Positions 1,192 through 26,603 of a DNA stretch of 34,263 nt are shown in pieces (the stretch's first letter is position 1; each line of letters opens with the position of its first letter). The notes under the pieces were generated by a model, which was given only the letters and a program-made list of their open reading frames with translations, was not told where the DNA came from and ran no database searches. Source of the DNA: Actinomycetes bacterium (GTDB taxonomy: Bacteria; Actinomycetota; Acidimicrobiia; Spongiisociales; SHLN01); NCBI GenBank assembly GCA_024638625.1, contig JAHEJY010000009.1, positions 8,111 through 42,373 on the forward strand. Reading direction: 5' to 3'. The position numbers and the translations under genes were made by a program.

Positions 1192-3306
1192 ATGACTAAC
1201 ACCGACATTCCGATCGTAGGCGGCGCCACGCTGTCTCTCCCCACGTCCTTTGAACGCCTGTGGGACCTGGCAACCAATATCTGGTGGACCTGGGACCACG
1301 AGGCCAAGGAACTCTGGCGCCGCATTGATCCACAACGCTGGGCCGAAGGCGGCAACCCCGTGGCTCATCTTCATGGCATCGAACCCGAGGTGTGGGATAC
1401 GCTCGAGACCGATGTCGCATTCGTCGATTTGTACGAACGCGTCGTCCGACGGTTTGATGGCTACATGAAAACCACCGACACCTGGTTTGAGGAACGGGGT
1501 GTCGAATTGGAAGGTCCCATTGCGTACCTGTGCACGGAATATGGCCTCCACAACAGCCTTCGTTTCTATTCAGGAGGTCTCGGCGTTCTGGCCGGGGATC
1601 ACCTCAAGTCGTCATCAGATCTGGGGATCCCCCTGGTTGCGGTCGGATTGTTCTACCGACGCGGCTATTTCCACCAGGCGATCGACCCCCACGGCGACTC
1701 GCAGCACTACTACGCGCCGGCTGACCTAGGTGGTATGCCGGCATACCCGGTAGCCGATCGAACGGGCGCTCCGCTCCGTATCCCTCTCGAGTTTCCTGGT
1801 CGGATCGTCGAGGTTGCCGTATGGAAGTTGCAGGTCGGCCGCGTACAACTGTTGATGCTCGACACCGATCTTCCGGAAAATGAGGCGTTCGACCGCTCGA
1901 TTACCCACTTGCTCTATGTGCGCGGTCGGGACGCCCGTCTGGCTCAAGAGATCGTGCTCGGATTCGGCGCTGTGAGGTTGCTCGAGCATCTCGGCATAGC
2001 ACCCAGCACCTGGCACGTGAACGAGGGACACGCGGCGTTCTCCTTGATCGAGCGCCTGGACCGCCAGCCCGGCGAATCGATCGAAGAGCGTATTGCTGCG
2101 GTCAAACACAACACCCTCTTCACGTTGCACACGCCGGTGCCGGCTGGAAACGAGAAATTCGACATGAACTCGGTACTCCGGTACACCGACTATCTCGTTC
2201 CAGATCTCCCACGGGAGCTCGTCGCCCATCTGGGCCGCGTAGACGATTATGACCAGGCGCCATTCGATATGGGTGGTCTCGCCATTGCTCTCGCGTCAAA
2301 GGTGAATGGCGTCAGCAAACGGCATGGTCTCGTGGCCTCTGACACATGGCGGCATCGCATCGGGGATGAGGCCGTGGCCATCACAAACGGCGTTCACGTT
2401 CCGACGTGGATCGGCACGTCGAATGCGCGGCTGTTCAAAGAGGCTGTCGGGACCGATTGGGAACGCAAACTGACCCACGCAGATGCGTGGGACGCGATCA
2501 GGGACCTTGATCCGCACGAGGTATGGGCCGCCCACAACACACAAAAGCGGGTCTTGCTCCGTTCACTTCGGGCCCGGATTCGCAGCCAGTTCGCCCGTCA
2601 CGGAGCCGGACCCGACTGGTTGAAGGAAATCAACGACATGCTGCCGGAAGATCGCCTGACGATCGGGTTCGCACGCCGGTTTGCCACCTACAAACGCGCA
2701 ACCCTCGCCCTCTCCGATCTTCCGCGGCTCCAACACATCCTCACGAATCCTGAACGACCGGCCCAGATCGTGTTTTCGGGCAAAGCCCACCCCGCCGACA
2801 AGGGAGGGCAAGAACTCATCGCCCGCATCCACGAGCTCGCACAGAGGCCGGAGTTTCGCGGGCACCTCTTCTTCATAGAGGATTACGACATGGAACTCGG
2901 TCATCTCCTCACCTCCGGATGCGACGTTTGGCTCAACAACCCCACGCCACCGAAAGAGGCAAGCGGCACCTCCGGGATGAAGGCTGCCATCAACGGGTGT
3001 CTCAACCTGTCGATTCCGGATGGGTGGTGGGCCGAAGCGGTCGATCATGGTGTAAACGGCTGGACATTTGGTCCCCAGGGTCTCGATCCCAACGACGACT
3101 TTCACGACGCGGACAGTCTGTATCAAGTCCTGGAAAAGGAAGTGATCCCGACGTACTACGAACGCAACGCCGACGGAGTACCGGAGTCTTGGATTCAGAT
3201 GATGCTGAACTCGATGGCCGCGTGTACGCACCAGTTTTCCAGCCACCGCATGCTCGCCGAATACACCAATGAGGCCTACCTGCCGCTTGGAACCAACCTC
3301 TCCTAG
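1192..3306 (+). CDS. glgP: alpha-glucan (glycogen) phosphorylase, GT35
   Basis: Releases glucose-1-phosphate from the non-reducing ends of glycogen or maltodextrin; cytoplasmic and PLP-dependent. The N-terminus (LPTSFERLWDLATNIWWTWD) is the short helical domain typical of the bacterial/archaeal alpha-glucan phosphorylase branch. The PLP-lysine motif EASGTSGMKAAING is seen, with Lys near residue 597, followed by IPDGWWAEA. From the ATG at 1192 the protein is about 704 aa, as expected for this shorter branch. The open frame runs back to 1051 but the extra residues are unlike the family and overlap the divergent ltaE, so the later start was chosen. Its TAG stop overlaps the stop of the convergent lipoprotein gene by 4 bases, leaving no room for a separate terminator. 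Confidence 0.92.
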   Translation: MTNTDIPIVGGATLSLPTSFERLWDLATNIWWTWDHEAKELWRRIDPQRWAEGGNPVAHLHGIEPEVWDTLETDVAFVDLYERVVRRFDGYMKTTDTWFEERGVELEGPIAYLCTEYGLHNSLRFYSGGLGVLAGDHLKSSSDLGIPLVAVGLFYRRGYFHQAIDPHGDSQHYYAPADLGGMPAYPVADRTGAPLRIPLEFPGRIVEVAVWKLQVGRVQLLMLDTDLPENEAFDRSITHLLYVRGRDARLAQEIVLGFGAVRLLEHLGIAPSTWHVNEGHAAFSLIERLDRQPGESIEERIAAVKHNTLFTLHTPVPAGNEKFDMNSVLRYTDYLVPDLPRELVAHLGRVDDYDQAPFDMGGLAIALASKVNGVSKRHGLVASDTWRHRIGDEAVAITNGVHVPTWIGTSNARLFKEAVGTDWERKLTHADAWDAIRDLDPHEVWAAHNTQKRVLLRSLRARIRSQFARHGAGPDWLKEINDMLPEDRLTIGFARRFATYKRATLALSDLPRLQHILTNPERPAQIVFSGKAHPADKGGQELIARIHELAQRPEFRGHLFFIEDYDMELGHLLTSGCDVWLNNPTPPKEASGTSGMKAAINGCLNLSIPDGWWAEAVDHGVNGWTFGPQGLDPNDDFHDADSLYQVLEKEVIPTYYERNADGVPESWIQMMLNSMAACTHQFSSHRMLAEYTNEAYLPLGTNLS

Positions 3307-3980
3307 AGCAACTCGGTCGAGTCGAGAATCGTTCGGAGGTTGTCGAAAACGTCGGCGTCGTCGAGGGCATTGCCGGACGGAACGATGACGATATATCCGT
3401 CCGCCACCCTGTGGTGACCGGATATCTCGGTGATCCCCCCGTCCTCGAATCTGCTGGTGTCGGGAAACTCGTCGCTGATGAAAAAAGGCTCCTCGCCACA
3501 CCGGCCGAAGAGGTCACACGCGAAGGGCTGATCCCCGCTCCCGATCGTCACGGTGATCGTCGCCCCGGGATTTTCGAGCGAGAAAGCATCCCCGCCAAGA
3601 AGTGGGGTCGTTACGTTCTTGCACGTCCACCCGGTCGGAATGATCACCCGCAAGCCGACGCCGGGCGACGAGCAGTAGTCACTCGCCACCCCAGGCTCGT
3701 CGGGTTCTGGGGAGATAGTCGTCGACACCGGGCTCTCGGGAGCCAGGGTCGTCGGCGTCAGCGTCGTAGAGCTGCTCGAGACCACCGTAGACGTCGGCTC
3801 GACCGTTGTCGTGGTTTCCGGATCGCCCTGCGCTTCGCCTGCGGTTGTCACGGTCGACGTCGACTCAGTCGGGAGGGCAGCCGCCCGGTCGGCGGCTGTC
3901 ACCAGCGGATCGGATCCCGTATTGGCTCCGCAAGCAGCCGCCATCAAGGCAACGAACAGCGCAAAGATCAACCGTCGCAT
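3303..3980 (-). CDS. predicted lipoprotein with Ser/Thr-rich linker
   Basis: A 225-aa protein of unknown function. It begins with a lipoprotein signal peptide (MRRLIFALFVALMAAAC; lipid-anchored Cys about residue 17). A Thr/Ser/Pro linker of about 70 residues follows, then a C-terminal globular part with four cysteines (DYCSSPG, GWTCKN, FACDLFGRC), which could form disulfides outside the cell. The rest resembles small secreted domains of actinobacteria with alternating beta strands, but no family was recognised. It starts 3 bases after the stop of the upstream aminotransferase gene, so the two are probably co-transcribed. A lipoprotein is confident; the role is unknown. Confidence 0.75.
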   Translation of the reverse strand: MRRLIFALFVALMAAACGANTGSDPLVTAADRAAALPTESTSTVTTAGEAQGDPETTTTVEPTSTVVSSSSTTLTPTTLAPESPVSTTISPEPDEPGVASDYCSSPGVGLRVIIPTGWTCKNVTTPLLGGDAFSLENPGATITVTIGSGDQPFACDLFGRCGEEPFFISDEFPDTSRFEDGGITEISGHHRVADGYIVIVPSGNALDDADVFDNLRTILDSTELL

Positions 3981-3983
3981 CGG

Positions 3984-5165
3984 CTATCCCGTCCCGTGCT
4001 CGCTCAATACCGTCCGAATACCCTTTACCGCCTGGCTGATGCGCTGATCGTTCTCGACCAGGGCGAACCGAACGAAACCCTCGCCAGACGGCCCGAACCC
4101 GATTCCGGGACTCACGGCCACCCCCGCTTCACGAAGCAGCATTTTGGCAAACTCCAGGGACCCCATGTCGATGAAGGAACGGGGCATGGGTGCCCACACG
4201 AACATGGTTCCGCGGGGTCGGGGAATCACCCACCCTGCCCGGGCTAGACCGTCGATCAACGTGTCACGCCTGCCTTTATAGATGGCCGAGATCTCACGCG
4301 GGTAGTGATCGTGTTCGTTGAGCGCGATGATCGACGCAATCTGGATTGGTTGAAACGTTCCGTAGTCGAGGTAGGACTTCAGTTTCGCCAGTGCCGCGAT
4401 CATCTCCGGATTGCCCGCGAGAAATCCGACCCTCCATCCAGCCATCGAGTGGCCCTTCGTCAAGGTATACAGCTCCACGGCTACTTCCTTGGCGCCGGGA
4501 ACCTGCAGGATGCTGGGGGGTTCATAGTCGTCATAGACGAGATCCGCGTATGCAAAGTCATGCACGATCTTCACATCCCGGTCACGGGCGAGCTCGACGA
4601 GTTTCTCGAAGAATCCAACGTCCACGCATAAACCGGTCGGGTTGTGGGGGAACGAGACGACGATCACCCGGGGCTTGGGCAGGATTTCGTTGAAGGCTGC
4701 CTCGAGCCGGAAGAAGAAGTTTCCGTCATGGTCGAGGGTTACCCGCCGCACTTCGGCACCGGCCATCACGGGGGCATAGATGTGGATCGGATACGAGGGC
4801 TCGGGAACGAGCGCGGTATCGCCTGGTTCCACCAATGTCCACATGAGATGGGCAAGCCCCTCTTTGGCACCGATGGTGGTTATGACTTCGCTGTCGGGGT
4901 CGAGCGCGACCCCGAAACGCCGGTCATATCGATCCGCCAGGGCTTTGCGAAGATTGGGGATTCCCCGCGAAGCCGAGTAACGATGATTGGTTGGCTTCTG
5001 CGCGGACTCAATCAGTTTCTCCACCACCGCAGGAGGCGATGGCAGGTCCGGGTTACCGAAGCCCAGGTCGACGATATCGCGCCCGTTCTGTCGAGCTTCG
5101 ATTTTGAGCTGGTTGACTTCCGCAAAAACGTAGGGCGGCAAATTTCCGACGCGTCGAAATTCCAT
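3984..5165 (-). CDS. class I/II aminotransferase, AlaC-like
   Basis: PLP-dependent aminotransferase of fold type I, 393 aa. Visible hallmarks are FPHNPTG (Asn about 175), HDFAYADLVYD (Asp about 203) and the PLP lysine in LTKGHSMAGWRVGF (Lys about 237). C-terminal GFVRFALVEN carries the substrate-carboxylate Arg. The N-terminus (LPPYVFAEVNQLKIEARQ) matches the alanine-synthesising AlaC/YfdZ branch, so glutamate-pyruvate transamination is the likeliest reaction; a related LL-diaminopimelate or methionine aminotransferase cannot be excluded. The ATG at 5165 is the natural start by homology. It sits 101 bases downstream of the DUF1232 gene and directly upstream of the lipoprotein gene. Confidence 0.85.
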   Translation of the reverse strand: MEFRRVGNLPPYVFAEVNQLKIEARQNGRDIVDLGFGNPDLPSPPAVVEKLIESAQKPTNHRYSASRGIPNLRKALADRYDRRFGVALDPDSEVITTIGAKEGLAHLMWTLVEPGDTALVPEPSYPIHIYAPVMAGAEVRRVTLDHDGNFFFRLEAAFNEILPKPRVIVVSFPHNPTGLCVDVGFFEKLVELARDRDVKIVHDFAYADLVYDDYEPPSILQVPGAKEVAVELYTLTKGHSMAGWRVGFLAGNPEMIAALAKLKSYLDYGTFQPIQIASIIALNEHDHYPREISAIYKGRRDTLIDGLARAGWVIPRPRGTMFVWAPMPRSFIDMGSLEFAKMLLREAGVAVSPGIGFGPSGEGFVRFALVENDQRISQAVKGIRTVLSEHGTG

Positions 5166-5266
5166 CCGAAGAGGTTACGTCGACCGTAGAAACACCCGAC
5201 GGATTGGTGCCGGCGAATCCGCACGTTGGTCGTGCTCCGCCATGTGGTGCCGGACGCCGACGAAGT

Positions 5267-5677
5267 TCAGTTGTGGAGGTAACGCCGGACGGCCTTACGA
5301 ACCGTCCACGGAACCATGTTCGAACCCCAGTCGATGAGGCCTTCGATGACCTCGAGGACGTCGCTCGATCCCTCCCAGTACTCGCGAACGACCACTTCGC
5401 CCGCCGCGTCCATGAGGTATTGGAGCGCGAGTATGAGCAGCAAGATGTCATCGAGCTGGCCGATAACCGGGATCCACCCTGGTAGTACATCGAACGGTGA
5501 CATGGCGTAGGCGACCGCCACGCCGGCAAACACGCGTGCCTTGAAAGGTATCCGGGGATCTTTGGTGAGACGCCAGCCGAGTTTGACGAGATTCGGCAAC
5601 AGGGCGAGGGCCTCCTCGGCCGCGCGATATGGCTTCGTTGGTTGCGAAGCCGCAGCCGATGATCTGAAAACACCCAT
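5267..5677 (-). CDS. DUF1232 (YkvA-like) membrane protein
   Basis: A 136-aa protein with the DUF1232 core between about residues 45 and 85: a hydrophobic helix, then AYAMSPFDVLPGWIPVIGQLDD and a second hydrophobic helix (ILLLILALQYLM). The family is widespread and has no established biochemical role; members are small helical membrane-associated proteins. A charged tail (VRKAVRRYLHN) follows. It lies 12 bases after the stop of the 58-aa small gene and is probably in the same transcript as the ArsA-like ATPase. Family assignment is firm, function is not known. Confidence 0.8.
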   Translation of the reverse strand: MGVFRSSAAASQPTKPYRAAEEALALLPNLVKLGWRLTKDPRIPFKARVFAGVAVAYAMSPFDVLPGWIPVIGQLDDILLLILALQYLMDAAGEVVVREYWEGSSDVLEVIEGLIDWGSNMVPWTVRKAVRRYLHN

Positions 5678-5689
5678 GAAGACGCCAGA

Positions 5690-5866
5690 TTACCCGTCCA
5701 CAGAGATTCGCTGGATCGAGCGTTTGTCCCGGGAAGAGGGCTCGTGGCCGGCATCGGGACGGGCCAACTCTGCGAGGATGACCTGCACCGCTTTCAGTAC
5801 TTCCGTCAAGGCCAGACCCATATGAATACCTGCCCGCATCAGAGCTTTTCGGGTTCGAGCATCCAT
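5690..5866 (-). CDS. small helical protein, 58 aa
   Basis: Starts with ATG at 5866 and ends with TAA at 5690. A GGAG lies 5 bases upstream of the ATG, a good ribosome-binding site. The product begins MDARTRKALMRAGIHMG and continues into an amphipathic helix (LALTEVLKAVQVILAELARP), then a charged tail. No family was recognised. The reading frame fills the gap between the ArsA-like gene (52 bases upstream) and the DUF1232 gene (12 bases downstream), all on the same strand. This spacing plus the ribosome-binding site supports a real gene that standard length cut-offs would skip. Confidence 0.6.
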   Translation of the reverse strand: MDARTRKALMRAGIHMGLALTEVLKAVQVILAELARPDAGHEPSSRDKRSIQRISVDG

Positions 5867-5918
5867 CTGGTCTCCGTCTGCTTGGCGTAGGTCGTCCCAT
5901 CGCCTACCGGAGTGGCGA

Positions 5919-7079
5919 TTACGTGAACGTAACCGTCAGCAGCCCTTCTGACAACTTCGCGCCCTTGACTTCCCGACGTTTGAGTGAGTCCGGAAGAATA
6001 AATGCCCGCCGATAAGGGCCAACGGTGACGATGATCTCATCACCAACCCGGATGACATCGACATCGCCTTTTTCTGCGAACGGAATCGCCAGAGTCATGA
6101 TCACGTTCTTGCCGACCTCCGTCACATTGAACGGCTCGGACATCGAGAGACGATCAGCCGGGTCTACCCCGGCGTACAGCTCCTCGCACAGCAGACGCAA
6201 CTTGTCCACGCCGACCATCTCCTCATCGAACAGCCTCAGCCTCCGCCGGTCTACTTCGGCGAAGCCTTGCTCTACCGTCTCGAGGTGAGCTGCCTGGATC
6301 TCCTGCCACCGTTTGAAGTAGGGGTCCGTTATCGCATCCGGCAGAATCCGGTTGACGATCACCGAATCGACGGCATAGCCGAATAACCCCAGGTACGTGT
6401 AGGTACGACGGGCTTCAGAAATCACCATCTTCTCGGGGTTGACCACAAGTCGCGCACTCGTTATCTCGGGATTTGTGAGGATGTCGCGAACTCCGCTGAT
6501 ACGGCCATAGAAACCCTCGACCGACTCCAGAACCTCATTGCCGGCGATCGGCATCGACGTCATGCGACTGATCACGGGCCTGACCGCTTTATGGAACTTC
6601 TTGCCGGCGGGAAATATCTTCTCCATGTACCAGGCGAGGACTTCGGGCAGTGAAAGCAGTCGAAGGGTCTCGGCGGTGGGAGCGCAGTCGATAACCAATA
6701 CGTCATAGGCCTTCGACGTCGTGTGATCCTTGACGTCGGCCAGGGCAAACAACTCATCCATGCCGGGAAAGACCGCCATCTCCTCAGCCTCGACACCCGA
6801 CAGCCCCGACCAATCGAAGAGGTCGGACAGGTAATCGCGCACTTCGCCCCAATACTGTTCGAGGCGGCGTTGTGAGTCGATCTGTTGAGCATGGAGGTTG
6901 TCCAGAATCCGGGTCGGGGCATCGCCGAGTGGCACACCAAATGCGTCGGCGAGGCTGTGGGCCGGATCAGTTGACATCACGAGCGTGCGGTGTCCTGCAT
7001 CAGCGGCGCCCAGCGCACTGGCAGCAGCCACGGTCGTTTTGCCTACTCCCCCTTTGCCCGTTACCAGGAGTACGCGCAC
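5919..7079 (-). CDS. ArsA/GET3-family ATPase
   Basis: A 386-aa P-loop ATPase of the ArsA/Get3 group. The deviant Walker A GKGGVGKTT is at residues 8-16, followed by the switch-like STDPAHSLADAF. A second nucleotide-site motif is VLVIDCAPTAETLRLL. The last 75 or so residues (IPFAEKGDVDVIRVGDEIIVTVGPYRRAF) form the HSP20/alpha-crystallin-like domain found at the C-terminus of many bacterial ArsA-like proteins. No ArsB pump or ars regulator is nearby and the CxC ligands of true arsenite ATPases were not noticed, so arsenite transport is doubtful; a role in protein targeting or handling of hydrophobic ligands is an inference. Start is a GTG placed directly after the TAA of the SRPBCC gene, implying translational coupling. 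Confidence 0.85.
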   Translation of the reverse strand: MRVLLVTGKGGVGKTTVAAASALGAADAGHRTLVMSTDPAHSLADAFGVPLGDAPTRILDNLHAQQIDSQRRLEQYWGEVRDYLSDLFDWSGLSGVEAEEMAVFPGMDELFALADVKDHTTSKAYDVLVIDCAPTAETLRLLSLPEVLAWYMEKIFPAGKKFHKAVRPVISRMTSMPIAGNEVLESVEGFYGRISGVRDILTNPEITSARLVVNPEKMVISEARRTYTYLGLFGYAVDSVIVNRILPDAITDPYFKRWQEIQAAHLETVEQGFAEVDRRRLRLFDEEMVGVDKLRLLCEELYAGVDPADRLSMSEPFNVTEVGKNVIMTLAIPFAEKGDVDVIRVGDEIIVTVGPYRRAFILPDSLKRREVKGAKLSEGLLTVTFT

Positions 7080-20780: not shown

Positions 20781-21620
20781 TCAGGCGTCCTCTGTTCGGT
20801 TGAGGTGAACAACCCGCTGGGGAAACGGAATCTCGATGCCTGCTTGATCCAGCGCGGCTTTGACGGCCTTGGCCACACTGTCCCGAACTCGCCACTCATC
20901 AGAAATGGCGGGCTGATGCCAGAAGCGGACCGCAATATCGATCCCAGAATCGCCAAAGGCATGGACGAACGCTTCGGGACCAGGATCCGGGCTGACCCCC
21001 TCGACCGATGACGCCGCTTCGACGATTGTGGTCGTGGCTACTTCCAAATCGGATTGATAGCCGATTCCGATATCAATCGTCGTGCGTCGAATCCCGAGCA
21101 GGGTGTGATTGACGATCGGCTCTTTCCAAACCATCGCATTGGGTATGAAGACTCGCTCTCCGGCGAAGGTTCGCAGGTCGATGGTGCGCAGGTTGATGTC
21201 CTCGACCACACCACTGAAACCGACCGTGGTCACTTGATCTCCCGACTCAAACGGCTTGCGTATCGACATGAGGATGCCGGCTATGAAGTTCTCGAGGATG
21301 TCCTGGAAGGCAAACGCGAGTGCCAGGCCGAAGAGCCCAAAAATACCGAGGAGCGGGGCGATCGACACACCCACTCTGCTCAGGGCGTACACGAATCCGA
21401 TCGAGAAGACGACAAACGCCGCGAGCCTGCCAAGCAGCGTCCCGACGTATGGATTGGACGCATTGGAGAGAAGACGCTGAACAACCCGGCGTGCGGCTAT
21501 GGCCAGGAGTACAGCACCCACGATGAGGCCGGCCGCCCACAGCCAGTCTGCCAGTGTCAACTGCGTCAGCTGAGAAAGGGTGTCCGTCGTCGCATCCGCA
21601 GCGTTCGCATCCGTAGCCAT
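20781..21620 (-). CDS. MscS-family mechanosensitive channel
   Basis: A 279-aa inner-membrane channel that opens on membrane tension. Three hydrophobic helices are seen: about residues 24-44, 63-84 and 85-115. The last is Gly/Ala-rich (IAPLLGIFGLFGLALAFAFQDILENFIAGI), as in the pore helix TM3 of MscS. The beta domain FESGDQVTTVGFSGVVEDINLRT and VFIPNAMVWKEPIVNHT are typical. The cytoplasmic C-terminal domain ends with IEIPFPQRVVHL. The ATG at 21620 has GGGAG about 8 bases upstream; a TTG one codon earlier is possible. Convergent with leuB. Confidence 0.9.
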   Translation of the reverse strand: MATDANAADATTDTLSQLTQLTLADWLWAAGLIVGAVLLAIAARRVVQRLLSNASNPYVGTLLGRLAAFVVFSIGFVYALSRVGVSIAPLLGIFGLFGLALAFAFQDILENFIAGILMSIRKPFESGDQVTTVGFSGVVEDINLRTIDLRTFAGERVFIPNAMVWKEPIVNHTLLGIRRTTIDIGIGYQSDLEVATTTIVEAASSVEGVSPDPGPEAFVHAFGDSGIDIAVRFWHQPAISDEWRVRDSVAKAVKAALDQAGIEIPFPQRVVHLNRTEDA

Positions 21621-21648
21621 CAATCAAACTCCCATCTATGGGCTTTCG

Positions 21649-21752: not shown

Positions 21753-22484
21753 TCAGACATTCGCAAGAAAGAGGACCGCTCCGGTTGGCTGTGGAGATCC
21801 GCCCGCAGGTTCAATGGTTACCCCGAAGGCCACGCCCGGTTCCGGCACTCCGGCCAGCTCGACCGTCACGAACCCGGATTCGTCGGGCCGGAAGAGCCCC
21901 GCAGATACGGGTCCGTCTGCGCCGATCAGCCACATCTGGTAGGTGGCTTCCGAGCCAAGCGGGTCGAGCCCGGTGGCGATCATCACGGCTCCGCGCTCCT
22001 CGTCTGAGTAGGTGAGCGACATCTGATTCTCATCGGATGGCCCCAGCGTTGGTTCGACGGCGAGGACCACCGCGTCGGAGGCCCCGGTGATCTGCTCTAT
22101 TCGATCCTGAAACAGCTGCGGAAGAACCCCTACGCCGACAACCAACAGCACGACCGCTGCCGCGGCTGCCAGCGTGAATCTCCGCATCCGCCAGGTCCGA
22201 TCCCGGCGCTCGGGTATAGGCACCACGTCTGCTACCGGTTGTTCTTCGAGGCCGAACCCGGCGGTCGGCGCCGTTGCCTCCACCGCAGCCATCACACTCT
22301 CGCGGAGGCCGGGCGGCGGCTCCTCGTCCTGCGAGAAGAACAATGCTTCGAGGCCACCGGCCAGTTCATCGATTTGGCGAATGCATGATGCACACTCATC
22401 GAGGTGCTGTTCAAAGGCATGATGGTCGGCATCGGTGAGGGTTCCAAGGAGGTAGTCGGACACGAGGTCATGTAGTTCGTTCAC
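21753..22484 (-). CDS. RskA-family anti-sigma factor
   Basis: A 243-aa single-pass membrane protein that would hold its partner sigma factor inactive. The N-terminal zinc-type anti-sigma domain has the H-x3-C-x2-C motif (HLDECASC; His 27, Cys 31, Cys 34). A transmembrane helix spans about residues 103-123. The extracytoplasmic C-terminal part has the RskA-type sequence YQMWLIGADGPVSAGLF and VTIEPAGGSPQPTGAVL. The GTG start overlaps the sigma gene's TGA by 4 bases, an arrangement usual for a sigma/anti-sigma pair. Confidence 0.9.
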   Translation of the reverse strand: MNELHDLVSDYLLGTLTDADHHAFEQHLDECASCIRQIDELAGGLEALFFSQDEEPPPGLRESVMAAVEATAPTAGFGLEEQPVADVVPIPERRDRTWRMRRFTLAAAAAVVLLVVGVGVLPQLFQDRIEQITGASDAVVLAVEPTLGPSDENQMSLTYSDEERGAVMIATGLDPLGSEATYQMWLIGADGPVSAGLFRPDESGFVTVELAGVPEPGVAFGVTIEPAGGSPQPTGAVLFLANV

Positions 22485-23158
22485 GTTGCTTCCCCCAGGG
22501 CGGTTTCGAGGCGCAACAAACCGTCACGAATGCGAGATTTGATGGTGCCCAGGGGCACGCCGAGAATATTCGAGATTTCTGCCTGTGTCCGGTTCTCGTA
22601 GAAAGCCATATGCACAGCTTCACGCTGGAGTTCGGTGAGCGAACCCAGGCTCCGGGCTATTTGTTGGTCTTGGGAACGATCAATCACCGCATCCGCCACA
22701 ACATCGACATCGGGCTCATGGGAGGAAGCTGCGACCGACTCAACCCGCGTTCTGGCGGATTGCTCGCTGCGCACCCGGTCGATGGCCCTGCGACGGGCCA
22801 TGACCATGATCCATGTCACAGCGGATCCGCGGCTCCGATCCCAACTTTCTGCCTTGGTCCAGATCTCGAGGAGCACGTCGTGAGCAACTTCTTCGGCAAT
22901 GGAATGATCCCTCACGATGCCGCGCACCGTTCCGAACACCGGACCCGAAATCGCGTCATAGAGATCAGTGAATGCCTCTCGATCACCGGTTGCTGTGCGT
23001 CGGAGGAGTCCATCCAGGTCGGGTTTCACGTTGGCAGCAATGGCTGCACCTCTCTCACCGAGGTAGGCCGGCGTCATCAGGCTACGCACCAGTGAGATTA
23101 CCCGGGAAGGTATGGGAGATTGGCGAGGTGACCATCGCAGGGCGCAGGTGATCGTCAT
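22481..23158 (-). CDS. ECF-type sigma factor (SigK-like)
   Basis: RNA polymerase sigma factor of the extracytoplasmic-function group. Region 2 is seen in FTDLYDAISGPVFGTVRGIV and EEVAHDVLLEIWTKAESWDRSRGSAVTWIMVMARRRAIDRVR; region 4 in QREAVHMAFYENRTQAEISNILGVPLGTIKSRI. The whole frame gives 225 aa. Its first ATG at 23158 overlaps the stop of the cupredoxin gene (TGATG), which suggests coupling, but an inner ATG at 23077 would give a more usual N-terminus; neither has a clear ribosome-binding site. Paired with the RskA-like anti-sigma gene downstream. Confidence 0.88.
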   Translation of the reverse strand: MTITCALRWSPRQSPIPSRVISLVRSLMTPAYLGERGAAIAANVKPDLDGLLRRTATGDREAFTDLYDAISGPVFGTVRGIVRDHSIAEEVAHDVLLEIWTKAESWDRSRGSAVTWIMVMARRRAIDRVRSEQSARTRVESVAASSHEPDVDVVADAVIDRSQDQQIARSLGSLTELQREAVHMAFYENRTQAEISNILGVPLGTIKSRIRDGLLRLETALGEAT

Positions 23159-23586
23159 CAGCTGAGGTTTTCGACGGTGATGGTGCCGCGCATGTGAGGG
23201 TGGATACTGCAGAAATATGCATAGGTGCCGGGCTCGTCGAAGGAAACAACAGCGGTAGCGCCTGCTTCCGGCAATGTCATGTCGAAGCGCCCGGTAGGCG
23301 TATCAGGGACTCCGGAGGTGACGGTGTGATCGATCCGGTCGCTGTTGAGCCACGTGACAGACTCGCCTGCCTGGATAGTGAGTTCGCCAGGCGTGAACTG
23401 AAACACCTCAATGGTGACGTCGGCAGCCTGCCCTGAACCGGACTCGGACGAACTGGGGAACGAAGAATCAGAAATCGTCGAGGTGGTGGATGCCGGCGAT
23501 TCGGGAGCTATCGACCCAGTGGATGTGCAGGCAGCCAAAAGAAGCATGAGAAGCAACCCGAGGCTGGTGATGGTGGAGCGTTTCAT
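23158..23586 (-). CDS. plastocyanin-like cupredoxin lipoprotein
   Basis: A 142-aa exported protein with a type I copper site. A lipoprotein signal peptide (LLLMLLLAAC, lipid Cys 20) is followed by a Ser/Thr/Gly-rich linker to about residue 55, then a cupredoxin domain. Copper ligands are seen as His 87 (DHTVTSG), Cys 126, His 129 and Met 132 (YFCSIHPHM). The ATG at 23586 is chosen because the signal peptide starts there; the frame is open to 23676. It probably carries out electron transfer or copper binding on the outer face of the membrane. It leads the operon with the sigma and anti-sigma genes and overlaps the sigma frame by one base. Confidence 0.88.
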   Translation of the reverse strand: MKRSTITSLGLLLMLLLAACTSTGSIAPESPASTTSTISDSSFPSSSESGSGQAADVTIEVFQFTPGELTIQAGESVTWLNSDRIDHTVTSGVPDTPTGRFDMTLPEAGATAVVSFDEPGTYAYFCSIHPHMRGTITVENLS

Positions 23587-23641
23587 GGTGTCTCTTTCTC
23601 GTGGTGGTCGAATGTGATATTGGCTGAAAGGGGTGGAGAGC

Positions 23642-23684
23642 TGAGGGAGGTGGGGCGGTCGGAGGAGACGCCCCACCTCACTCA
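23642..23684 (-). terminator. strong hairpin after the two-domain lipoprotein gene
   Basis: GAGGTGGGGCG (23647-23657) pairs perfectly with CGCCCCACCTC (23669-23679) around an 11-base loop; TGAG/CTCA adds four more pairs outside one mismatch. On the minus strand it lies 10 bases after the stop of the two-domain lipoprotein gene and before the cupredoxin gene, so it would separate the two transcripts. The downstream stretch is C/T-rich without a clean T-run. Confidence 0.65.
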
Positions 23685-23693
23685 GTGTTCGGA

Positions 23694-24971
23694 TCAGCCT
23701 TCGAGGCCGAACTGTTCTGCGATGCCTCCGGCGAGGGTGGCAGCAGTGTTCGGCATGACGTTGGCCGCAACCTTGAGCTTGTCAAACGCATCAGCGTCGC
23801 CATCGACGACCGCGTCGATCGCAGCAAACACCGTCATAACGTGCGGCTGCAACTCTTCGATAACCGCTTCCTTCGGAAGATTCGGATTAGCCGACTCCAG
23901 GAACGCACCGAAGTCTTCGCGGTACTGACCGAGAGCTTCCTTGGCTGCATCCTGTCCGGCCTGGTCGCCGGAAGCACGGGCGGTCGTGTAGTCCACGAAG
24001 AACCCGATGTGGGTACGCCAGAGGGCGAGGAACGCCTCACCGGCGGGGTCGCCATACACCGAAGCGATCGAAGCCGCCAGATCCTGACTGTTCTGATCCA
24101 ACGTTGCTGCAGCGGCGTCAAAGAAGCCAGGGGCAGCGACTGCTGAATAGACCGCGATGCCGGCGAGGTATACGTGCTCCTGCAACTGAGCGGTCAAAAG
24201 TGAACGCAGATCCGAGGCGGCAGAACCAGGATCGCCATCGAAGGTCTCCGGCATTTGCGCCGCGATGCCTCCGGCGAGGGTGGCAGCAGTGTTCGGCATG
24301 ACGTTGGCCGCAACCTTGAGCTTGTCAAACGCATCAGCGTCGCCATCGACGACCGCGTCGATCGCAGCAAACACCGTCATAACGTGCGGCTGCAACTCTT
24401 CGATAACCGCTTCCTTCGGAAGATTCGGATTAGCCGACTCCAGGAACGCACCGAAGTCTTCGCGGTACTGACCGAGAGCTTCCTTGGCTGCATCCTGTCC
24501 GGCCTGGTCGCCGGAAGCACGGGCGGTCGTGTAGTCCACGAAGAACCCGATGTGGGTACGCCAGAGGGCGAGGAACGCCTCACCGGCGGGGTCGCCATAC
24601 ACCGAAGCAATCGAAGCCGCCAGATCCTGACTGTTCTGATCCAACGTCGCCGCCGAGGCTTCGAAAGCCGGAGGGTTGTTGACAGCGTTGAATACGGCAA
24701 TGCCGGCCAGGTAGACGTGCTCCTGTAGTTGGGCAGTCAGTAATGATCGCAATCCCGCGGCGCCGCTCTGAGTTGCAGCCGCACCGGTGAGGATGGTTTC
24801 TTCCATTTCTTCGTCGACCATGGGCGCGGTCGTTGTGGTTTCTGGCATGGTGGTGGTGGTTTCTGCGGGAGTCGTCGTAACTGTGGTCTCGGTCCCGGCG
24901 TCTCCGTCTCCACATGCAGCGGCCGTCAGGGCCAGGGCGAGTAGGAACGCGATGAGTCGCTTCTTCTTCAT
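23694..24971 (-). CDS. lipoprotein of two tandem helical domains
   Basis: A 425-aa exported protein. A lipoprotein signal (RLIAFLLALALTAAAC) is followed by a Thr-rich linker, then two copies of a domain of about 180 residues. Each copy has LRSLLTAQLQEHVYLAGIAV, SVYGDPAGEAFLALWRTHIG, FFVDYTTARASGDQAG, FLESANPNLPKEAVIEELQ, PHVMTVFAAIDAVV and a final NTAATLAGGI segment. The pattern resembles a poorly understood helical-bundle family of Gram-positive bacteria; the conserved Glu-His, Arg-Thr-His and Pro-His positions could bind metal. A ribosome-binding site AAAGGA lies 8 bases before the ATG at 24971. The frame is open upstream to 25022. Function unknown; location next to a cupredoxin hints at a redox or metal role. 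Confidence 0.8.
   Translation of the reverse strand: MKKKRLIAFLLALALTAAACGDGDAGTETTVTTTPAETTTTMPETTTTAPMVDEEMEETILTGAAATQSGAAGLRSLLTAQLQEHVYLAGIAVFNAVNNPPAFEASAATLDQNSQDLAASIASVYGDPAGEAFLALWRTHIGFFVDYTTARASGDQAGQDAAKEALGQYREDFGAFLESANPNLPKEAVIEELQPHVMTVFAAIDAVVDGDADAFDKLKVAANVMPNTAATLAGGIAAQMPETFDGDPGSAASDLRSLLTAQLQEHVYLAGIAVYSAVAAPGFFDAAAATLDQNSQDLAASIASVYGDPAGEAFLALWRTHIGFFVDYTTARASGDQAGQDAAKEALGQYREDFGAFLESANPNLPKEAVIEELQPHVMTVFAAIDAVVDGDADAFDKLKVAANVMPNTAATLAGGIAEQFGLEG
23719..24104. repeat. near-identical intragenic repeat, copy 1
   Basis: The 386-base segment recurs at 24262-24647, offset 543 bases (181 codons), with a single difference seen (G at 24066, A at 24609). It covers about the C-terminal 130 residues of each domain of the two-domain lipoprotein. 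The neighbouring 5' part of each domain-coding copy has diverged at many synonymous sites. Confidence 0.85.
24262..24647. repeat. near-identical intragenic repeat, copy 2
   Basis: Partner of the segment at 23719-24104 in the same reading frame. It encodes the C-terminal part of the first (N-terminal) domain of the lipoprotein. Identity ends abruptly at 24648. Confidence 0.85.
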
Positions 24972-25073
24972 GATGTACGTCCTTTCGATGATGAGTACGG
25001 GCCTGGTTCGGACCGGGCCCACGGACGGATGGGTGTGAGTTCAGAAAAAGCTCGACGTGCCGATAGTTCGGGC

Positions 25074-25610
25074 ATGTCGACCGATGACCTCATCGATGCG
25101 GCCCGCAGAGGAGAGCAAAACGCCTGGCTCGATATCGTCTCCGAGTTGGGACCTCAAATCCAGGGGTATGCGAGAACCAAAGGCGTCGAGGATGCCGAGG
25201 ATCTGTTGCAGGACGTTCTCACCGCGGTCGCCACAGGAATTCATGATTTCGAAGGCGGCTGGAGCAATTTCCGGTCGTGGGTGTTTTCGATTGCGTACCG
25301 GCGCATCGCCGACACCCACCGAAGTGGCTTCCGAAGGCCCCGACATGTGCGGTACGACAGTTTCGCAGACTCCGGGCATGCGTCCTCGAATCCGGAATCC
25401 GTTGTTCTGGTCGACACCATGACCGATGCATCACTCGAGGCGCTCAACGTCCTCAACGACGTGGAACGAGAAGTGATCGTGTTGCGCGTGATCGCCGATC
25501 TCGATACCGAAGAGGTTGCTGCGGTAGTCGACAAGAAGCCCGGAACCGTACGAGTCATCCAGTCGAGAGCAATGAGCAAGCTACGCAAGGAACTGGAGGC
25601 ATGGTCATGA
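25074..25610 (+). CDS. sigma-70 family (ECF-like) sigma factor
   Basis: A 178-aa sigma factor. Region 2: DLIDAARRGEQNAWLDIVSE, EDAEDLLQDVLTAVATGI and FRSWVFSIAYRRIADTHRSG. Region 4: VLNDVEREVIVLRVIADLDTEEVAAVVDKKPGTVRVIQSRAMSKLRKEL. The ATG at 25074 gives a typical N-terminus and leaves about 100 bases to the divergent lipoprotein gene for promoters; an ATG at 25029 is in frame. Its stop TGA is part of an ATGA overlap with a 41-aa frame. It has no recognisable zinc-type anti-sigma gene next to it. Confidence 0.88.
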   Translation: MSTDDLIDAARRGEQNAWLDIVSELGPQIQGYARTKGVEDAEDLLQDVLTAVATGIHDFEGGWSNFRSWVFSIAYRRIADTHRSGFRRPRHVRYDSFADSGHASSNPESVVLVDTMTDASLEALNVLNDVEREVIVLRVIADLDTEEVAAVVDKKPGTVRVIQSRAMSKLRKELEAWS

Positions 25611-25732
25611 CGTCATTGACAATCGTGGTGGCGCGAATCACAGCGCAGGCGGTTTCCCGAGGACCGGTCGCCAAAGCCACCAAGAAATGTTGTAACGATT
25701 CTGCCGATCGAGCGATTACGTGGTTGATATGA
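25607..25732 (+). CDS. 41-aa microprotein between sigma and membrane genes
   Basis: ATG at 25607 overlaps the sigma stop (ATGA) and has GGAGG 7 bases upstream, inside the sigma gene. Its own stop TGA at 25730-25732 overlaps the ATG of the next gene (ATGA again). The product starts MTSLTIVVARITAQAVSRG, has a basic middle (VAKATKKCCND) with a Cys-Cys pair, and ends RAITWLI. No family was recognised. The double overlap and ribosome-binding site are the evidence; it may serve mainly to couple translation of the next gene, or act on the sigma factor. Confidence 0.55.
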   Translation: MTSLTIVVARITAQAVSRGPVAKATKKCCNDSADRAITWLI

Positions 25733-26541
25733 GTCAGCAGTCGCAATCACATGATCCGTTGGAAGAGTTTCCCGAATGGTCGGCGAACCTCAAGGCGTCG
25801 GTCATCCCTGATCTCGATCCACTGGCTGTGGCCGAAACGGCACAGCTGGCGGCTCGGGCGGCGGCTGCTGCCTCGCTGACCACGGCCGCCGGAAGTACCG
25901 GCGCCATCATTTCAGGAGGTACATCAACCATGACAAGTGCAACCATGAGCGCAGCAACCGCCACGAATGTGTCGATCCTCTCCACGCTCGGAGGAAAGAT
26001 TGGAGCCGCCATCCTGGCGACCGCAGTCGTTGCCGGCGGAGCAGCCGTCACAGGCAATCTTGCGGTGCCCGCAACATCGGATGTGGCGCCCGTTACATCC
26101 CTCCTCGACGGTACTGTCGACGGAACGGTGAAGATCGTGGAGACGGCATCCGGATCCTTGTCGCTCGACCTGACCGATGAGGGTCTCCAGATCATCGACC
26201 TCGTCGCCCTGGAGGGGTGGACGGCCACCGTCACCAACCAAACGACGTCAGAACTGTCGGTTGCGTTCAGCGATGCCACTGGCACCGTCACCGTCGACGC
26301 CGCCATCGACGAGGCCGGCACCATCGTCACGACCGTTTCTGACAAGGTCGCAGCCCAGGTCGATGAGGCTCGGAACCTTCTCCCCGAGCCGGTCCTAGAA
26401 GCACCGCAGGTCGGCGGCAATGCCGGTGCCGGAACCGATATCACGATCGGGGCCGGGGTAGCAGGCGATTCCACTGCCGGATCAGCAGAGGGCTCGGCTC
26501 AAACCGATGTGTCGATCGACACGGGGCTTTCCCTCAACTAG
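25729..26541 (+). CDS. single-pass membrane protein, possible sigma regulator
   Basis: A 270-aa protein of unknown family. An N-terminal part of about 90 residues is acidic then Ala/Thr/Ser-rich (DPLEEFPEWSANLKASVIPD at the start). A hydrophobic helix lies at about residues 91-113 (KIGAAILATAVVAGGAAVTG), then a predicted external part rich in Thr, Val, Asp and Gly. Sigma factor followed by a membrane protein suggests an anti-sigma role, but no zinc-anti-sigma motif is present. The ATG at 25729 overlaps the 41-aa frame's stop; a GTG three codons earlier (25720) is possible. Confidence 0.65.
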   Translation: MSQQSQSHDPLEEFPEWSANLKASVIPDLDPLAVAETAQLAARAAAAASLTTAAGSTGAIISGGTSTMTSATMSAATATNVSILSTLGGKIGAAILATAVVAGGAAVTGNLAVPATSDVAPVTSLLDGTVDGTVKIVETASGSLSLDLTDEGLQIIDLVALEGWTATVTNQTTSELSVAFSDATGTVTVDAAIDEAGTIVTTVSDKVAAQVDEARNLLPEPVLEAPQVGGNAGAGTDITIGAGVAGDSTAGSAEGSAQTDVSIDTGLSLN

Positions 26542-26542
26542 C

Positions 26543-26603
26543 GGGGCGAAGTAGATCCTCAGCATGTGGCCCCTCCGTTCGGAGGGGCCACATTGTTCGC
26601 CCC
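26543..26603. terminator. strong intrinsic-type hairpin
   Basis: TGTGGCCCCTCC (26565-26576) pairs with GGAGGGGCCACA (26581-26592), 12 perfect pairs around a GTTC loop, followed by TTGTT. An outer repeat pairs GGGGCGAA (26543-26550) with TTCGCCCC (26596-26603). It sits directly after the membrane-protein stop and would end the sigma operon. Confidence 0.85.

Follow-up and report, generated by a model that had tools for sequence, protein, structure and literature searches.

The window analysed here is a 34,263-nt stretch of contig JAHEJY010000009.1 from an uncultured Actinomycetes bacterium (assembly GCA_024638625.1), and the features discussed lie within its positions 21,753-26,541. The minus strand encodes hel, a helical lipoprotein with two domains, together with a cupredoxin lipoprotein, a SigK-like ECF sigma factor and an RskA/zf-HC2 anti-sigma factor. 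Divergently, the plus strand encodes a ShbA-like ECF sigma factor (sigma 2), followed by mem2, a one-TM-type protein. The features are as follows.

21753..22484, minus: RskA-type anti-sigma factor with a cytoplasmic zf-HC2 domain (HxxxCxxC), one TM helix and an extracytoplasmic RskA_C domain (Pfam RskA_C 3e-25, zf-HC2 2e-8)
22481..23158, minus: SigK-like ECF sigma factor (Sigma70_r2/r4; best NCBIfam model SigK)
23158-23676 (ORF; probable ATG 23586), minus: cupredoxin lipoprotein (PF00127 1.2e-11; amicyanin model 1e-12)
23641..23685, minus: strong RNA hairpin with no T run, between the hel stop and the cupredoxin start (from folds)
23694-25022 (ORF; probable ATG 24971), minus: hel, two-domain helical lipoprotein of 425 aa with lipobox LTAAC, family unnamed (alignment, model)
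23697..24224, minus: hel domain 2, 93% identical to domain 1
24231..24767, minus: hel domain 1, seven helices (model pLDDT 96.0; alignment)
25007..25032, minus: putative promoter of SigK type, CCATCC-N16-CGAA, starting 61 nt upstream of the hel ATG
25029-25610 (ORF; start probably 25077), plus: ECF sigma 2, ShbA-like (best NCBIfam model ShbA)
25607..25732, plus: 41-aa frame, unconserved and probably no gene
25729..26541, plus: mem2 membrane protein (one TM segment predicted by reading), which travels with sigma 2 in two genomes of the same family, G004 and G006

Except for the 41-aa frame, the open reading frames and domains agree with the gene content and families given in an earlier, sequence-only reading of this DNA. 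The true start of hel is probably the ATG at 24971 (MKKKRL...LTAAC), which would place the gene at 23694..24971, and that of the cupredoxin gene is probably the ATG at 23586 (MKRSTITSLGLLLMLLLAAC). The SigK-like sigma gene overlaps the start of the anti-sigma gene by 4 nt and, if its first ATG is used, also the cupredoxin stop (TGATG). No sigma-70-type promoters were found, against 1.0 expected.

The anti-sigma factor scores 162 bits with the NCBIfam anti-sigma equivalog (cut-off 100) and 89 bits with PF10099, RskA_C (cut-off 29), and it adjoins the SigK-like sigma. The latter reaches 220.2 bits with the NCBIfam SigK model, whose cut-off is 226; relatives of it lie above that value (264 bits in L047, 251 in L069 and 228 in L038). 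Its single Cys is residue 5, outside the sigma domains, and there is no Cys pair.

By sequence searches and a PDB fold search, hel matches no Pfam, NCBIfam or PDB family. The window protein gives no Pfam match at E 0.001, and its relatives give only stray weak ones, the best being DinB_2 at 0.0067. In Foldseek searches with the hel models, the best E values were 0.12 and 0.07, and no natural metal protein was matched. As profile and fold searches were negative, membership in a named helical metal-binding family (DinB, hemerythrin, ferritin-like) was dropped. The full-length structure model has a pLDDT of 95.8. In an alignment of 67, three His per domain are invariant and four are usual, although this invariance is partly selected, since the loci were recovered with peptide patterns containing the conserved His. 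In domain 1 the conserved His are domain positions 17, 72 and 128, and in the predicted model they sit mid-helix in helices 1, 3 and 5; the window genome and its family have Val in place of the fourth His that is common elsewhere. Distant single-domain relatives were recovered without His-containing patterns, and two of them also adjoin ECF genes. The family ranges over Actinomycetota, Bacillota, Chloroflexota, a haloarchaeon and Alphaproteobacteria.

The duplication within hel, proposed from the sequence at the outset, has a period of 543 nt with 300 nt 100% identical, and across nt 23719-24104 the two copies, 543 nt apart, disagree only at 24066. The two domains evolve in concert. Unique stretches between the copies, together with contig breaks that fall inside hel in both G004 and G001, a member of the sister genus, suggest that the repeat is real; an assembly artefact appears less fitting. 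Among relatives the domain has been re-duplicated repeatedly, with up to four tandem repeats. Their anchors always lie outside the cell, being a lipobox, an MPxTG sortase signal, or an SLH or Cu_amine_oxidN1 domain. Bacillales forms carry the MPxTG signal, with a class F sortase adjoining and mostly without an adjoining cupredoxin; in total, 32 hel loci have a sortase match.

The minus-strand genes recur together well beyond the window. Among 80 related loci from Actinomycetota, Chloroflexota and Bacillota, 59 have the sigma and/or anti-sigma factor, 27 the cupredoxin and 69 at least one of these three partners. In an independent sample of 39 Actinomycetota loci, a cupredoxin was present in 19, a sortase in 7, an anti-sigma in 7 and a sigma in 8, whereas 20 random 12-kb control regions gave 0, 0, 0 and 3, respectively. 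The sigma alone shows a small excess over the control (8/39 vs 3/20), 30 of the 39 loci lack an adjoining sigma or anti-sigma, and the cupredoxin is the steadier hel partner in this sample. The order hel-cupredoxin-sigma-anti-sigma is kept in G001 and, over two contigs, in G004. These results uphold the claim that the ECF/RskA pair and the neighbouring lipoproteins form a unit. Since the set turns up in widely different bacteria, it seems to be a genuine, so far unstudied envelope copper/redox response and not a chance grouping. Searches of mainly open-access literature found nothing relevant on the combination of hel, cupredoxin and sigma.

The same check of gene order went against the other half of the original grouping, in which two sigma systems around the lipoprotein gene made up one locus. 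In the window hel and sigma 2 are divergent, with about 60-105 bp between their starts, an arrangement that might suggest a single two-sigma circuit around hel, with sigma 2 and mem2 included. Nevertheless, the sigma2/mem2 pair occurs at other sites in G004 (downstream of purB) and G006, never beside hel; in G004 a different gene precedes hel; and mem2 has no match in G001, an assembly that is 77% complete and whose contig breaks inside hel. Such a circuit is therefore highly improbable. The pair was dropped from the module on conservation and is, on these gene positions, probably a separate sigma/anti-sigma system that neighbours it by chance. By reading, mem2 has a cytoplasmic N-terminus, one predicted TM segment and an extracytoplasmic C-terminus, and it is a candidate for the cognate anti-sigma factor of sigma 2. 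The 41-aa frame, once counted in the divergent operon, had no tblastn match in the hel loci tested or in sigma2/mem2 relatives, and only a short gap separates sigma 2 from mem2 at its place in G004. Thus, it is probably not a gene and was dropped as unconserved.

The sequence-only reading did not include the SigK-type motif at 25007-25032, in front of hel. Its CCATCC presumably matches the SigK -35 hexamer. Searches of papers did not turn up the SigK promoter consensus. The motif precedes hel in 12 of 33 high-GC relatives, where 0.06 is expected from shuffles, at 61-87 nt from the start and in one case at 195; it also stands before the cupredoxin gene in 5/21 upstreams. The same promoter is present in Cellulomonas (L081, L082). 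No such motif was seen ahead of hel in G004, and in the independent Actinomycetota sample it lies near a module gene in only 5/39 loci. The genome contains the pattern 46 times, against 8 in the backward control, so the evidence lies solely in where it stands and how far it is conserved. By the presumed M. tuberculosis consensus, hel is preceded by a candidate SigK-type promoter that is kept in relatives. This conservation supports regulation of hel by the sigma, which may transcribe it. The hairpin between the hel stop and the cupredoxin start is in the same place in G001 and G004 and folds also in most relatives. It is a candidate attenuator or 3′ stabiliser that would give more hel than sigma and anti-sigma.

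Taken together, the minus-strand genes may constitute an envelope switch of the ECF19 type, with a surface-anchored His-cluster protein (hel) and a cupredoxin as its outputs. The outputs would probably deal with copper or redox outside the cell, and we consider this reading as a whole somewhat probable. In this scheme, the SigK/ECF19-like sigma would be held by the membrane RskA-type anti-sigma and then released to transcribe hel from CCATCC-N16-CGAA. Transcription would run past the hairpin into the cupredoxin, sigma and anti-sigma genes, producing positive feedback with far more hel than regulator. On the cell surface, each hel domain would bind a metal, with copper as the likeliest, and hel and the cupredoxin would buffer or pass copper or electrons outside the membrane. 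We infer metal binding by each domain from the invariant His set and from fusion to cupredoxin, which occurs in two Chloroflexi loci. The copper link proposed earlier is strengthened by these fusions and by cupredoxin adjacency.

Two other roles for hel were weighed. The protein could be a structural or adhesive wall component, a helical spacer with structural His and the cupredoxin as an unrelated passenger. Tandem repeats on a sortase, lipid or SLH anchor suit such a spacer, surface proteins built of repeats commonly evolve in concert, and the Foldseek result agrees with this. However, the polar set H-N-H-H (three His and an Asn) persists in the distant single-domain relatives, which lack other invariant residues, and the cupredoxin is both enriched (19/39 vs 0/20) and twice fused, so we regard a spacer as unlikely. 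Alternatively, hel could be a sensor that binds metal or a ligand and touches RskA_C, releasing the sigma. This would be in line with the surface anchoring of all hel forms, the repeated re-duplication of the domain and the presence of an RskA-type anti-sigma in the same stretch in 57/80 loci. Yet hel has its own SigK-type motif in many relatives, a strong hairpin parts it from the regulator genes as is typical of an abundant output, and in many loci no RskA adjoins hel and the cupredoxin; a sensor is thus doubtful. Of the roles first suggested for the lipoproteins, outputs or sensors, outputs are the likelier, given the recurrence across phyla and the motif before hel.

For the signals and purposes of SigK/RskA-type systems, the conserved partner set of a His-rich surface protein, a cupredoxin and, in many cases, a class F sortase points to a specific hypothesis, namely envelope copper or redox defence under the proposed switch. 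In addition, hel is a widespread, unnamed surface protein. Pfam and NCBIfam contain no model for its broad family, and in some genomes the protein goes by a misleading enzyme name. It is possible, if short of probable, that hel is the founding member of a new and widespread class of extracellular metalloproteins. Their repeated unit would be a seven-helix domain bearing a site of three or four His and an Asn, tethered by a lipid, sortase, SLH or wall-binding domain. They would relay copper or electrons at the surface, either alongside a cupredoxin or fused to one, and would commonly be under ECF/RskA control.

Among the nearest known systems is SigK-RskA of M. tuberculosis (ECF19), with which the window has in common a membrane anti-sigma with RskA_C, here next to a SigK-like ECF sigma whose score lies just under the model cut-off; the anti-sigmas of ECF19 have been described as a group (PMC7406223). 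M. tuberculosis SigK is redox-switched through a Cys pair (PMC8103513), whereas the window sigma has one Cys. M. tuberculosis RskA does not depend on a zinc motif (PMC7406223), while the window anti-sigma carries zf-HC2. The signal of SigK-RskA is still unidentified and its regulon is mpt70/mpt83 (PMC7509140). These outputs are of the fasciclin type; the window neighbours are instead hel, cupredoxin and MscS, none with a fasciclin family match in Pfam or NCBIfam. Sigma 2 is nearest to the ShbA model among ShbA/SigD-type ECF sigmas but under its cut-off (119 bits against 209), and mem2 has no Pfam match, RsdA-type anti-sigmas included. Planococcus proteins named 'copper amine oxidase' have the same hel domains at 38-41% identity. 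The name most likely stems from Cu_amine_oxidN1 (PF07833), C-terminal in some Paenibacillus members; window hel has no catalytic or N1 domain match by Pfam and no sign of an amine oxidase, and that identity was dropped. Finally, the window cupredoxin shares with amicyanin and plastocyanin the PF00127 domain and the full H, C, H, M ligand set of type-1 copper cupredoxins, read from its sequence as a complete, amicyanin-like H...C-x2-H-x2-M. Unlike them, it is lipid-anchored, has no tie to methylamine dehydrogenase or photosynthesis, and has relatives that are encoded with hel or fused to it.

The gene list of the sequence-only reading is right, save for the following revised starts and a 41-aa frame that it listed and to which relatives show no match:
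23586, minus strand, revised start of the cupredoxin gene
24971, minus strand, revised start of the two-domain helical lipoprotein gene (hel)
25077, plus strand, probable start of the divergent sigma gene (sigma2)
The window's contig, C72, belongs to a draft genome of 2.8 Mb, the nearest kin of which are Acidimicrobiia MAGs, as seen in the genome scan for hel relatives. Downstream of the anti-sigma gene is an MscS-type channel (20781-21623, minus strand); the adjacency to leuB is also seen in the sister genus member G001 (locus L032).

In total, 84,980 genomes were scanned, yielding 161 hel relatives, the best 80 of which come from Actinomycetota, Chloroflexota, Bacillota, and one haloarchaeon. 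Among the loci of these best 80 of 161, profile searches found sigma and/or anti-sigma in 59, cupredoxin in 27, and at least one of the three in 69, and a class F sortase match is close to hel in 32 loci. As these 80 represent the closest relatives, Actinomycetota genomes were sampled independently, and hel occurs in 36 of 297; 39 loci from them were examined, with 20 random 12-kb regions from six of those genomes as the control. Cupredoxin was found in 19 of the 39 loci, and sortase and anti-sigma in 7 each, compared with none of the control regions, while sigma was found in 8 compared with 3. Thus, cupredoxin is the most constant partner of hel, and the ECF/RskA pair is a frequent one; sigma by itself is hardly above background in this sample. 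Single-domain relatives on Methylocystis and Nocardioides plasmids adjoin ECF sigma genes. Rossellomorea loci, among them L084 (7763-8860), have a gene for a bacterial nitric oxide synthase about 2.3 kb from hel, probably as local synteny only.

No Pfam or NCBIfam model covers hel, either in the window protein or in the 66 relatives searched, and a structure sequence search found no related solved structure. Each domain comprises seven helices, five long and two short. Despite very confident models (pLDDT 95.8 and 96.0), a fold search against solved structures gave no relative, a negative that is suggestive only because fold comparison is weak for all-helical bundles. Alignment of 67 sequences shows three invariant His in each domain, along with an equally invariant Asn, Trp, and Tyr. 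Since the search patterns included some of these residues, a fairer test comes from distant relatives identified with profiles or tblastn; these retain the three His and the Asn, and most have lost both Trp and Tyr. In the window genome, G001, and G004 (a further genome with a relative), Val takes the place of a fourth His that is common elsewhere.

The two domains within one protein have a median identity of 67%, compared with 47% for like domains of different proteins, and unlike ones are no less similar; across the family, the two domains thus undergo concerted evolution, the repeat being renewed or converted repeatedly. The window copies share 93% identity and, over 386 nt (23719-24104 versus 24262-24647), differ at a single base, whereas 16% of sites differ between window and sister genome across 707 nt of the gene. 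This near-identity reflects a recent conversion; an assembly effect is the less likely cause.

A lipobox is found in most actinobacterial members, the usual C-terminus in Bacillales is MPxTGxGG-TM-K/R with a sortase adjacent, one member has SLH domains, and several from Paenibacillus have a Cu_amine_oxidN1 domain, most likely the source of the 'copper amine oxidase' annotation of relatives. Every one of these anchors puts hel outside the membrane. In two Chloroflexi proteins (L034:5956-8736 and L040:5881-8637), a cupredoxin domain is fused C-terminally to four hel repeats. Most Bacillales loci, L086 and L096 included, have an ECF/RskA pair followed by a hel with an LPxTG-like signal and, directly 3′, a class F sortase, so that hel and sortase are apparently a dedicated sortase-substrate pair. 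Jeotgalibacillus L109 has two full-length hel genes in tandem (2727-4136 and 4536-5957), 5′ of the sortase.

A candidate promoter motif precedes hel in the window:
25032-25007, minus strand, CCATCC-N16-CGAA, upstream of hel
Taken alone, it means little, with two occurrences in the window against 0.7 expected and 46 genome-wide against 8 in the backward control. However, of 33 high-GC relatives, 12 have C[CA]ATCC-N16/17-CGAA 5′ of hel, in most cases 61-87 nt from the start (shuffled hel upstreams average 0.06), and it occurs 5′ of cupredoxin in 5 of 21; in three of these five (L042, L046, and L047), cupredoxin comes before hel on the same strand. In the independent sample, it is near a module gene in 5 of 39 loci, in some of them within coding sequence, and in none of the controls. 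A curated model assigns the sigma of L038, L047, and Cellulomonas L069 to SigK. In most relatives, as in the window, G001, and G004, a strong hairpin follows the hel stop; it would raise hel output relative to the regulators encoded downstream.

Positions 21753-26541 had been read as one envelope locus of two sigma systems facing away from each other, of which one half is a real, conserved module and the other is probably not part of it. Sigma2 and the membrane protein gene mem2 are located elsewhere in G004 (3′ of purB) and in G006, another genome with relatives, and the gene 5′ of hel in G004 differs from that in the window; therefore, the layout is best read as coincidence. Judging from pairing and topology, mem2 probably serves sigma2 as its anti-sigma. 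A hairpin read by eye 3′ of mem2, GTGGCCCCTCCGTTCGGAGGGGCCAC (26560-26600), is likely the sigma2 operon terminator. In L149 (G021:C13, 6328-6822 and 8428-8628), the top non-family relative of sigma2 (50% identity) has a cupredoxin-like gene about 1.6 kb away.

Hel represents an uncharacterised, widespread family, for which a putative metal-binding, copper-linked role is the best reading, and the regulator of its module is of an already known kind.
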